A DNA stretch of 39,701 bases from Caldifarciminota bacterium (GTDB taxonomy: Bacteria > Hydrothermota > Tepidihabitantia > Tepidihabitantales > Tepidihabitantaceae): the NCBI GenBank assembly GCA_020352555.1, contig CP070680.1, positions 2,819,521-2,859,221 of the forward strand. The letters are read 5' to 3'. The position numbers and the translations under genes were made by a program. Positions 4,606-37,151 of this stretch are shown here, one piece after another; the first letter of the stretch is position 1, and each line of letters opens with the position of its first letter. The notes under the pieces were generated by a model. It was given only the letters and a program-made list of their open reading frames with translations, was not told the DNA's origin and made no database searches.

Positions 4606-5943
4606 CTAGATCGCTTCGTCGAGCGTGCCGGTGGTGACTTGGCCGCGAAGAAACCGGCCGCTCTTCACCAGGCGCCGGTGCAGGCTGACGGTGGTGGCGA
4701 CCCCGCTGATCTCGGTCTCGGCCAGAGCCCGAGACATCCTGGCAATGGCCTGTTCTCTGTCGCGGCCGTGAGAGACCAGCTTGGCGACCAGGGGGTCATA
4801 GAAGGGCGGTATCCGGTATCCGGCCGTGATGTAGGAGTCCACCCTGATGCCGGGTCCGCCCGGAAGCCGAGCCTCGGTGACCAGGCCCGGGCATGGCTCG
4901 AAGTCGGCGTCCGGGTCCTCGGCATAGATGCGGCATTCTATCGCGTGGCCGCGCGGTTCAATCCCGCCCGCCGGAAGGTCGAGCTTCTCGCCGGCCGCGA
5001 TCAGCAGCTGTTCCCGGACGATGTCGACACCGGTGACTTCTTCGGTGACAGGATGCTCAACCTGGAGCCGGGCATTGGTCTCCATGAAATAGCAGCTATG
5101 GTCCCTATCGACGATGAACTCGACCGTGCCGGCATTGGTGTAGCCGGCTGCCCGGGCCGCAGCGACCGCCCAGTCCCCCAGTCTGCGACGCAACGCCGGG
5201 TCGACAATCGGGGAGGGCGATTCTTCAAGCACCTTCTGATGCCGGCGCTGGGCCGAGCAGTCGCGTTCTCCGAGGCTGGCGACGTTGTCATGCCGGTCGG
5301 CCAGGAACTGGATTTCGATGTGGTGTGCGGCGGCGATGTACTTCTCGACGTAGACCCGAGGGTCGCCGAACGACGCCTTGGCTTCGGCCTGGCACATACG
5401 GAAACCGCTCTCAAGGTCCTTCTCGCGTCGGATGACCCGCATGCCCTTTCCGCCGCCGCCGGACGCGGCCTTGACGAACACAGGATAGCCGAGTTTCTTG
5501 CACAGCCGTGCGGCTTCCTTGGCGTCACGGACTTCGCCTTCAGAGCCCGGGACAACGGGCACGCCCGCCTGTGCAGCTGACCGGCGGGCCTGGATCTTGT
5601 CTCCCAGCAGTCGCATCGTGGACGCGGTCGGGCCGATGAAGGCCACTCCGCAGGACTCAGTCGCCTCAACGAACTCGGGACTCTCGGACAGGAAACCGTA
5701 GCCGGGGTGGAGGGCTTCACACTTGGTGATCTCCGCTGCGGACAGGACCCGAGAGACGTTGAGGTAGCTGTCTTGGGCCGGAGGGGGACCGATGCAGACA
5801 GCCTCGTCCGCCACGAAGGTCGGCAGGGATTCGGCGTCGGCTTCGGAGTACGCAATGACGGTCTCGATACCGAGGTCGCGACAGGCGCGGATGATGCGCA
5901 GAGCGATCTCGCCGCGGTTGGCGACGAGGAGCTTCCTGAACAT
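4606..5943 (-). CDS. accC: Acetyl-CoA carboxylase biotin carboxylase subunit
   Basis: A 445-residue ATP-grasp enzyme that carboxylates the biotin of biotin carboxyl carrier protein, the first half of the acetyl-CoA carboxylase reaction in fatty-acid synthesis. Visible: N-terminal KLLVANRGEIALRI, HPGYGFLSE, the ATP-binding loop GGGGKGM near residue 165, the RRHQKVLEESPSP segment, and ETNARLQVEHPVTE with the catalytic-region NAR. Length is normal for AccC. The ATG overlaps the stop of a 23-codon frame (TGATG) and has no Shine-Dalgarno sequence of its own, so translational coupling is likely. A biotin-carrier gene normally lies between efp and accC; none is here. A role as the A subunit of another biotin carboxylase is possible. 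Confidence 0.95.
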   Translation of the reverse strand: MFRKLLVANRGEIALRIIRACRDLGIETVIAYSEADAESLPTFVADEAVCIGPPPAQDSYLNVSRVLSAAEITKCEALHPGYGFLSESPEFVEATESCGVAFIGPTASTMRLLGDKIQARRSAAQAGVPVVPGSEGEVRDAKEAARLCKKLGYPVFVKAASGGGGKGMRVIRREKDLESGFRMCQAEAKASFGDPRVYVEKYIAAAHHIEIQFLADRHDNVASLGERDCSAQRRHQKVLEESPSPIVDPALRRRLGDWAVAAARAAGYTNAGTVEFIVDRDHSCYFMETNARLQVEHPVTEEVTGVDIVREQLLIAAGEKLDLPAGGIEPRGHAIECRIYAEDPDADFEPCPGLVTEARLPGGPGIRVDSYITAGYRIPPFYDPLVAKLVSHGRDREQAIARMSRALAETEISGVATTVSLHRRLVKSGRFLRGQVTTGTLDEAI

Positions 5944-6014
5944 CAGGCCAAGGAGGAAGCGGCAGTTGCCAGGTACAGACTGCGGTCCGGACGTGCCAGT
6001 CCTCTGACCTTCAT
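5943..6014 (-). CDS. Putative 23-residue leader peptide overlapping the accC start
   Basis: This frame starts at ATG 6014, preceded by GAAAGGACAAG as a Shine-Dalgarno region, and ends in a TGA that shares its A with the accC ATG. The peptide begins MKVRGLARPD and ends in SSLA. It has no biotin-attachment motif (EAMKM), so it is not a remnant of the AccB end that can be recognised. The start region is made of AAGGAC-type 7-bp units. It could be a coupling peptide or merely a spacer that happens to be open. Confidence 0.4.
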   Translation of the reverse strand: MKVRGLARPDRSLYLATAASSLA

Positions 6015-6026
6015 CTCTTGTCCTTT
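5999..6026 (-). repeat. 7-bp array, type RAAGGAC, efp-accC junction
   Basis: Four heptamers on the minus strand (AAAGGAC, GAAGGTC, AGAGGAC and a variant). They supply the ribosome-binding site and first codons of the 23-residue leader frame. Confidence 0.6.
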
Positions 6027-6033
6027 CTTCGGC

Positions 6034-6591
6034 TCAGGCTCTTTCGACGTAGGAGTTGTCGCGGGTGTCGACCTTCACCCTGTCCCCGACCTTGACGAAG
6101 AAGGGTACTGTGATCCTGAGGCCGGTGGTGAGGAGTGCGGGTTTGCCTCCACCCGCCGCGGTGTCGCCCTTGAAATCGGGTTCGGTCTCGGCGACCTCCA
6201 TTTCGAGGAACATCGGCGGTTCGACGGTCACCGGTCTACCCTCGACATAGAGTACGTCGGTCTCGACGTTCTCAACCAGGTAGAGTGCCCTGTCGCCAAT
6301 CGCTTCCGGTGACAGCGCGAACTGGTCGTAGGTCGCCATGTCCATGAAGTGGTACCCCAACTCGTCGGAGTACATGTACTGGCTGCGCCGGCGTTCGACA
6401 TCGGCCGGCTCCAGCTTGAGTTCGGATTCAAAGCTTTCCTCGATGAGCGCGCCGGTATCGATGTTTCTGATCTTGGCAACGACCCGAGCGCGGCGCTGGG
6501 CGGTCCGCTGGCGGTAGCAACTCAGGACTTCGAAGATGCCGTCTTTGCGCTTGAATATCGTGCCGGCCTTGAATTCGTTGGGGGTAATCAC
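6034..6591 (-). CDS. efp: Translation elongation factor P
   Basis: A 185-residue EF-P, the factor that binds between the P and E sites and rescues ribosomes stalled on polyproline. Three domains are visible: N-terminal KOW-like (NEFKAGTIFKRKDGIFEVL), the middle OB domain (YMYSDELGYHFMDMATYDQF) and the C-terminal signature (KGDTAAGGGKPALLTTG, ending VDTRDNSYVERA). The start is GTG at 6591, sharing a GTGA overlap with the end of a 25-codon frame; no Shine-Dalgarno precedes it. The domain I tip that usually reads PGKG, with a modifiable lysine, here reads RTAQRR, so the tip residue aligns with Q32 and no lysine is available. Encoded between the M24 peptidase and accC, a common neighbourhood. Confidence 0.95.
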   Translation of the reverse strand: MITPNEFKAGTIFKRKDGIFEVLSCYRQRTAQRRARVVAKIRNIDTGALIEESFESELKLEPADVERRRSQYMYSDELGYHFMDMATYDQFALSPEAIGDRALYLVENVETDVLYVEGRPVTVEPPMFLEMEVAETEPDFKGDTAAGGGKPALLTTGLRITVPFFVKVGDRVKVDTRDNSYVERA

Positions 6592-6665
6592 ATCTGGGCC
6601 AAGGACGAAGTGTCAAGTACAGAAGACAAAGCGGAACTCGGCCGTTCTGGTACTTTGTCCTTCAT
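6588..6665 (-). CDS. Putative 25-residue leader peptide overlapping the efp start
   Basis: ATG at 6665 lies 18 bases after the peptidase stop and directly follows a run of AAAGGAC-type heptamers that acts as a Shine-Dalgarno region. The frame ends in TGA at 6588-6590, inside the GTGA that also starts efp. The peptide begins MKDKVPERPS and ends SSLAQM, close to the SSLA end of the second leader frame before accC. Coding potential cannot be shown from composition; the paired architecture is the main argument. Confidence 0.4.
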   Translation of the reverse strand: MKDKVPERPSSALSSVLDTSSLAQM

Positions 6666-6677
6666 CCTTTGTCCTTT
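6643..6677 (-). repeat. 7-bp array, type RAAGGAC, peptidase-efp junction
   Basis: Five heptamers on the minus strand (AAAGGAC, AAAGGAT, GAAGGAC, AAAGTAC and a variant), supplying the ribosome-binding site and first codons of the 25-residue leader frame. Confidence 0.7.
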
Positions 6678-6683
6678 CCTAGA

Positions 6684-7745
6684 CTAGAGTTGTATCAGCT
6701 TCTTCGGGCTGCGGGTGAAGTTGCGACAGCCGTCACGGGTCACCAGCACCATATCCTCGATCCGTACACCGCCAAACCCTGGTAGATATATGCCGGGTTC
6801 GACCGTGACCACATCGCCTGCTGTCAACGTCTGCTTGCTGGTGTGCGCGACAGCGGGTGCTTCGTGAACGTCGATTCCGACCCCGTGGCCGAGGCCGTGG
6901 CCGAAATACGGGCCGTACCCCGCGTTGCGGATGAAGCCACGGGCGGCTTCATCGGCATCACGACAGGCCAATCCGTGCCGGACCGCAGCCAGGCCCCGGA
7001 GCTGGGCCTCAAGCACGATGTCGTACACCTGCCTCAAGTCCGGGTCGATCCTGCCCACGAACACGGTCCGGGTCATGTCACTGCTGTAGCCATTCCTTTG
7101 GCAGCCGATGTCAAAGGTCACCGCGTCGCCCTTTCTCAGTTTCCGGTCCGTTGATCCCGCGTGGGGTTTGGCGCCGTTGGGCCCGGACGCAACGATGGGC
7201 CGGAACGCGTTCTCACCACGCAGGCTGAACCGATAGGTGATTTCGGCGGCCAGCTCTCGCTCACTGATCCCGGGTCTGATGATACCGAGGATGTCGTTGA
7301 AGACCCTGTCGGTGACCCGCTGGGCCGCCTCGATGGCCTTGACCTCGTCCGCATCCTTGCATCTTCGCAGTTCGAGCACCAGGTCTGTCTTGAGCGGGAC
7401 CAGACGCACTCCCTTGAGCCGCCGCTTGAGCGCATTGTGGACCGCCAGCGTCAAGTTCGCGGATTCGACTCCCAGCCGCTTGATGCTCCTGGTGTGCTCG
7501 ACCGGGAAGTCAGTGAATAGGCCCCGGGAGATGGTCTTGACCCGGCAGCCTCTGACTTCGGTCTTGACCTGTTCCTGGTACCGGAAGTCGGTGTAGAACC
7601 AGGATGTGTTCGGCGCAACCAGCATCGCCCCGTTCGACCCCGAGTAGCCGCACAGATACCGGACGTTGGAGAGGTCGGTCACGAGCAGGCTGTCGACGCC
7701 GCTCCGCTCGAGCAGCCGGCGCAACCTGCGAACCCTGCTGGTCAT
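6684..7745 (-). CDS. M24 family Xaa-Pro aminopeptidase/dipeptidase
   Basis: A 353-residue cytoplasmic metallopeptidase that cleaves peptides next to proline. It has the creatinase-type N-terminal domain ([19 protein letters not shown]) and a complete pita-bread catalytic domain with all five metal ligands: D in FDIG, D in SSDMTRT, H in [15 protein letters not shown] in VEPGIY and E in GVRIED. First gene of an operon with efp and accC, the usual pepP/pepQ-efp-acc association. There is no Shine-Dalgarno before ATG 7745. The promoter at 7756-7783 would give a leader of only about four bases, so the message is probably leaderless. Confidence 0.93.
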
Positions 7746-8903: not shown

Positions 8904-8913
8904 CTACGAGGAA

Positions 8914-8961
8914 GTGGTCGAGCGACTGAACGACCGAGCGGCCGAGTGACCGAGCGGCCCG
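8914..8961 (+). repeat. Degenerate 8-bp tandem array, type GTGRYCRA
   Basis: Six consecutive octamers without indels, for example GTGGTCGA and GTGACCGA, filling most of the spacer between the GTPase and kinase genes. The same octamer family recurs at 33435-33474. Confidence 0.75.
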
Positions 8962-8986
8962 GCCGCGGAGCGGCAACGGATGCGGG

Positions 8987-36972: not shown

Positions 36973-36991
36973 CGCTGTATGACCACCTTGC

Positions 36992-37026
36992 GGACCGCTG
37001 ACCGCACACCGCTTTCCGCTGTCCGC
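36992..37026 (+). repeat. 7-bp array, type NNNCCGC, inside the tail remnant
   Basis: Five heptamers (GGACCGC, TGACCGC, TTTCCGC and similar) encode the linker between GVYF and KVVIQR of the tail remnant. Confidence 0.75.
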
Positions 37027-37151
37027 GACGATGCGGAGCCTGCCGTCGGACGGCAGAAGTAGACTCCGGGCGCGATGTGTTGGATGTCATTGGGGCCGGG
37101 CCGCAGGGACATCACGACGCGGCCGGAAGCGTCCAGCAGCTTCGCTCCGCT

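Follow-up and report, generated by a model that had tools for sequence, protein, structure and literature searches.

The window analysed here, a stretch of 39,701 nucleotides, comes from a genome of 3.26 Mb that consists of a single contig and belongs to a family most of whose named members are listed as candidate division WOR-3 bacteria. On its minus strand, an M24 family peptidase gene is followed by efp and then by accC, and each of the two gaps between these genes harbors a short frame (hereafter, bridge frame) led by a Shine-Dalgarno (SD) sequence. The features, from upstream to downstream, are as follows.

6684..7745, minus strand: M24 family peptidase, the upstream cistron (Pfam PF00557, PF01321)
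6592..6683, minus strand: M24-efp gap, 92 nt, a heptamer-built inverted repeat with arms at about 6650-6676 and 6601-6620
6588..6665, minus strand: efp bridge frame, read from the sequence, 25 codons, SD AAAGGA, stop overlapping the efp GTG
6034..6591, minus strand: efp, elongation factor P (Pfam PF09285, PF01132, PF08207)
5944..6033, minus strand: efp-accC gap, 90 nt, a second, more degenerate copy, as judged from alignment and fold
5943..6014, minus strand: accC bridge frame, 23 codons, SD AAAGGA, stop and accC ATG with one common base
4606..5943, minus strand: accC, biotin carboxylase (Pfam PF02786, PF00289, PF02785)

The efp bridge frame (MKDKVPERPSSALSSVLDTSSLAQM) runs from ATG AAG to a TGA at 6590-6588, which lies within the efp start GTG (6591-6589), giving an overlap of +4. 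The accC bridge frame (MKVRGLARPDRSLYLATAASSLA) ends with a TGA at 5945-5943, and accC starts with the ATG at 5943-5941, giving an overlap of +1. Both frames start with MK, end in SSLA, and have AAAGGA 6 bases 5′ of their ATG. They begin at +18 and +19 from the upstream stop, without overlapping it. An SD-like 4-mer was absent from the usual place for efp and for accC. Thus, the preliminary description of this locus, in which both genes lack an SD of their own and are overlapped at their starts by SD-led MK frames of 25 and 23 codons, was accurate. Nevertheless, the missing SD is ordinary here, since only 212 of 431 sampled co-directional genes of the source genome have an SD-like 4-mer. The same description had suggested an EF-P-sensitive control, which we do not retain: a search for a PP pair found none in either bridge peptide, and the same arrangement stands before numerous unrelated genes (rpsF, selB, ktrA, and others). 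The bridge peptides look unconserved among relatives, and Rfam gave 0 matches within the window.

Two features of the genes themselves are recorded here as side observations. The canonical EF-P loop motif is PGKG; the sole EF-P found in the source genome (6034-6591) has RTAQRRAR at the loop, a sequence common to all 18 family members, while order-level relatives have AQRRAF. Besides, accB commonly lies between efp and accC in bacteria, and it is absent from 5944-6033.

Heptamer repeats inside and outside the two gaps

Both gaps are composed of degenerate AAGGACR-type heptamers. In the efp gap, one arm per strand forms a single long stem with an RNA fold of -35.8 kcal/mol (z -2.97), and the fold of the accC gap (z -0.76) is not clearly above shuffles. 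When at most 2 mismatches were allowed, the pattern AAGKAYRAAGKAYRAAGKAY matched 86 times in the source genome compared with once for the reversed control, which confirms that the arms are heptamer-built. A looser palindrome pattern, AAGKRC N10-39 GYMCTTB, was useless, since its reversed control matched more often (235 times) than it did (164 times). The AAGGACR pattern had 38 to 265 matches per genome in all six genus g3 genomes and 58 in the family member G011, and ten other family members had 0 to 8 matches each; in G001 and G007, the numbers were 0 and 1. Among AAGGACR arms that touch genes in the source genome, 26 of 29 lie on the coding strand. The gaps of relatives are filled by other heptamer types, which differ even at one and the same junction.

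By end-to-end alignment, in which 60 of 85 columns are identical, the efp gap and the accC gap are homologous; the alignment score was 30, whereas shuffled sequences gave 8.0 ± 1.6 and 0 of 500 shuffles reached 30. The efp gap is, however, just as similar to a further, third junction at L043 878-1006 (score 32), and therefore the two gaps are better regarded as two members of a family of dispersed repeats. Of the duplicated leaders proposed earlier, the homology of the gaps thus stands and the private pair does not.

Repeat gaps make up 24 of 189 gaps in the source genome and 108 of 302 in genus g3. As the repeats are present only in this minority of source-genome gaps, the period-7 autocorrelation averaged over all of its gaps is weak (z 3.9 for co-directional, 4.8 for convergent, and -1.3 for divergent gaps). 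At an equal threshold, the sampled source genome contained 20 period-12 stretches (16 intergenic) and 10 period-7 stretches (8 intergenic). Within the window, further heptamer-like stretches, CGGTCGCT-like and CCGCTGA-like, lie at 8904-8986 and 36983-37032. Locus L033 (7433-7729) carries a ~33-bp tandem array of AAGGACRAAGCAA-like heptamers with an inverted copy at its end. In L052, L061, L065, L067, L073, and L078, AAGGACR heptamers occur inside genes, on the coding strand and near the locus centre, directly before an apparent C-terminal domain that we take to be a sorting domain, and a second heptamer type often lies further on. The intragenic repeats appear to act as linkers within proteins. 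In L070 and L080, a heptamer array lies directly behind or across the start codon; that of L070 encodes an N-terminal tail (MNKDEVQRTKDK), and that of L080 supplies the SD and ATG.

Closing frames in the source genome and its relatives

In the source genome, SD-led closing ORFs were found in 9 of 114 gaps of 60 to 150 nt, counting only out-of-frame ORFs with an ATG start, at least 15 codons, and an end at -6 to +12 of the next start; dinucleotide shuffles gave 1.6 ± 1.2, and 0 of 100 reached 9. Since an array of pure AAGGACA has no stop in any of the six frames, openness alone is uninformative, and each gap was therefore compared with its own frame-shifted copies. In these copies, one or two mid-gap bases were removed or repeated, so that composition, starts, and stops were kept and the register was changed. 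A bridge frame had to open at -6 to +40 of the upstream stop and close at -10 to +5 of the next start, in gaps of 45 to 260 nt. Gene starts came from a codon-based caller made for the analysis, which may have absorbed in-frame cases as longer genes and so lowered the control counts somewhat; the efp, accC, rpsF, and ktrA junctions were placed by homology.

Closing frames were present in 49 of 132 repeat gaps of the source genome and genus g3, compared with 18.4 (range 16 to 20) in frame-shifted copies. When 7-mers were shuffled within each half of the gap, the count was 19.7 ± 3.7, and 0 of 200 shuffles reached 49; without look-alike junctions, 46 of 124 gaps closed against 15.7. The stops of these frames gather at +4 (22 of 49) and -2 (8 of 49), and 16 of the 49 frames start at -4 of the upstream stop. 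An upstream [AG]TGA occurred at 55 of 152 repeat gaps and at 70 of 370 others (p 4.4e-5). Non-repeat gaps of the same genomes closed in 56 of 310 cases compared with 33.1 (range 27 to 38), a signal that missed genuine small genes may inflate. The repeat-gap excess was not replicated in a further sample of 382 kb (G016 and G011), in which 4 of 20 repeat gaps closed compared with 3.1 in the controls; by eye, one of these 4 frames resembles a tRNA gene. The other gaps of that sample closed in 15 of 60 cases against 4.7; hence, the signal is not confined to repeats.

Pooling all co-directional gaps of 45 to 260 nt gave 132 closing frames in 581 gaps against 65.6 (range 60 to 71), the 581 including gaps of middling period-7 score (0.50 to 0.57; 21 in the source genome, 28 in g3) that belong to neither class. 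Furthermore, frames open up to the next start favor the closing register over the other out-of-frame register, both in the pooled gaps (112 vs. 32, p 1.3e-11) and in repeat gaps only (41 vs. 12, p 8e-5). The same pipeline gave no excess in 400 kb of E. coli K-12 (9 of 118 against 10.6; registers 6 vs. 8). The codon usage score of bridge frames was -0.09, with +0.21 for genes and -0.27 for random gap frames.

Most relatives have tight junctions at this locus, -4 to 41 nt for M24-efp (11 of 18 genomes) and -1 to 15 nt for efp-accC (8 of 18 genomes, with one more, G005, cut by a contig end). Wherever the gap exceeds 45 nt in the family, a bridge frame is present, in 7 of 7 genomes at M24-efp (stops at -2 to +7) and in 9 of 9 at efp-accC (stops at -10 to +8). 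Their lengths in codons, with G000 denoting the source (index) genome, are given below.

M24-efp: G000 25, G011 55, G005 35, G003 52, G008 43, G001 34, G007 29
efp-accC: G000 23, G011 208, G003 23, G013 39, G017 46, G002 47, G008 28, G015 28, G016 32

Together, all 16 long gaps have a frame that closes at the next start, compared with 0.9 of 16 for frame-shifted copies, although shared ancestry of the six g3 genomes and some shared stop-start ends (TAGCCATG) make the 16 fewer independent events. In G011, with its likely ATG, accC is overlapped by 8 nt, just outside the -10 to +7 window of the frame-shift comparison. Its efp-accC gap (L002) measures 632 nt and is open in one frame for 208 codons, with 11 stops in each other frame. 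In sequence, repeat type, and length (23 to 208 codons), the orthologous bridges are unrelated. The check proposed in the preliminary description, a search of relatives for frameshifts in these stretches beside intact genes, brought no refutation, and the comparative evidence from the 16 gaps lends support to the coupling that it had put forward. Of two long efp-accC gaps from outside the family, neither has a bridge frame.

At ychF-rpsF, a 21-codon frame that opens at +1 and closes at +4 is present in 6 of 6 genus g3 genomes, and among four genomes compared its differences spread nearly evenly over codon positions (50, 51, and 60 of 96). For rpsF, 17 of 18 loci were analysed (G006 is cut by a contig end); 8 others have gaps of 10 to 15 nt, and 3 were unplaced. 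At ktrB-ktrA, two of three gaps above 45 nt have a frame (the index genome and G001), and the 93-nt gap of G008 has no bridge frame; 12 of 15 genomes with a match were used here, three of 34 to 36% identity being left out. The atpD junction adds nothing, as only one of three loci (G013) was properly placed.

Probable bridge cistrons and the competing explanations

We consider it probable (roughly 0.7), on the sequence comparisons above, that the frames before efp and accC are bridge cistrons, which maintain translational coupling over gaps widened by repeats. The M24 peptidase, efp, and accC genes would form one operon with a common transcript, whose ancestral junctions were probably tight, as in most relatives, and two of these would have been widened to about 90 nt by heptamer-built DNA. 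Because one of its frames remains open, such an expansion would be tolerated. A ribosome may start at the ATG right after the upstream stop, by reinitiation or via the frame's own SD, and read through the repeat hairpin, which this translation would open, making a peptide that does not itself matter. It would then halt on the next start codon and reinitiate there without an SD. Stop and start lie within a few bases of each other here, as termination-reinitiation coupling requires, and coupling, rather than another benefit that needs translation, is the presumed gain. By the comparison of orthologous gaps, the kept feature is an open register ending on the next start and not a peptide.

One could argue that the frames are only a by-product, as stop-free AAGGACR arrays bring AAGGA SDs and GGATGAAGG starts, and closing would follow by chance. 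The openness of a pure array in all six frames fits this explanation, as does the GTGATT at the conserved EF-P start, which gives one frame a stop in any case. However, frame-shifted copies retain these array features and close far less often, both among the 132 repeat gaps and at the 16 orthologous ones, and frames recur in TGA-containing repeat types (AATGACC) as well as in repeat-free gaps. On the frame-shift and 7-mer block-shuffle controls, we dropped this explanation as improbable. Translation of the gap might instead shield the operon against mRNA decay or Rho-dependent termination, with the nearness of stop and start being secondary. Frames that stay open across long gaps, such as the 208 codons in G011, agree with such protection, but protection alone would allow stops further upstream, and those of the repeat-gap frames cluster on the start; we thus hold it to be very improbable as well. 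Most improbable is a split ribosome-binding site, in which the hairpin brings an SD on the left side of the palindrome's base beside the start on the right side: the efp gap has the fitting layout, with a stable fold, AGGAAAGGACA immediately to the left of the stem, and the start immediately to its right, but the accC gap does not fold clearly better than shuffles and, in many relatives, the gap lacks an SD on the left. Split sites of this kind have been described for T4 genes 38 and 25 (PMC3014915), where the SD lies outside a structure that shortens the spacing. The RNA structure right before the start is similar here, whereas an open frame runs through it.

The open-licence literature that we searched held no description of bridge cistrons of this kind. 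A review (PMC12548453) treats short ORFs that deliver ribosomes, with NTGA as the commonest spacing, engineered bicistronic designs with a short leader cistron, and mycobacterial interspersed repetitive units (MIRUs; Supply et al. 1997), whose insertion occurs at starts and which carry a coupled ORF. The leader ORF of iraD is a natural short upstream ORF coupled to the next gene (PMC5574718). Like the iraD leader and the bicistronic designs, the bridge frames are short leader cistrons whose stop overlaps the next start; those are single regulated leaders or constructs, whereas here many gaps within operons are concerned and no sequence is kept. The likeness to MIRUs goes further, as these are depicted as repeats between operon genes with an ORF coupled to the next gene (by a -4 overlap) and little harm from insertion, and the end of the small ORF overlaps the next start as it does here (+4 for efp, +1 for accC). 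The start of the MIRU ORF overlaps the upstream stop (DTGA). MIRUs are, however, one kind of unit, and here heptamers of many types and lengths are involved, together with gaps without repeats. The mobility sign of the MIRU type, target duplication, was not seen here, as ATGA-type sequences at both ends occur at the expected rate (5 vs. 3.7 expected and 16 vs. 15.1). Hence, the best reading is that the bridges are MIRU-like in logic and not bound to one element.

Heptamer repeats as such have precedents. Those of Beggiatoaceae (TAACTGA; PMC4679880) are intergenic, near starts, and mostly without SD, and those of Xanthomonas (GGGAATC; PMC4692102) are intergenic and partly in inverted pairs. The heptamers described here are likewise intergenic, whereas each of those studies concerns one heptamer type. 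Moreover, forward TAACTGA arrays carry stops and cannot be read through, in contrast to the arrays kept open here.

Whether this extends to the whole family is evenly balanced in our judgment: operon spacers of this WOR-3 family may generally be held open as bridge cistrons without a kept sequence, with selection favoring unbroken translation and contact between stop and start and being indifferent to the peptide and the DNA. If true, many types of heptamer repeat, and other DNA too, can spread into operons, which would account for repeat invasion of operons without breaking expression and would amount to a lineage-wide rule of spacer evolution rather than the work of one mobile element. It would also define a class of short ORFs in which translation matters and the product does not, and would therefore caution annotators of small proteins. 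Finally, it would make translational coupling a measurable comparative signal in uncultured lineages.
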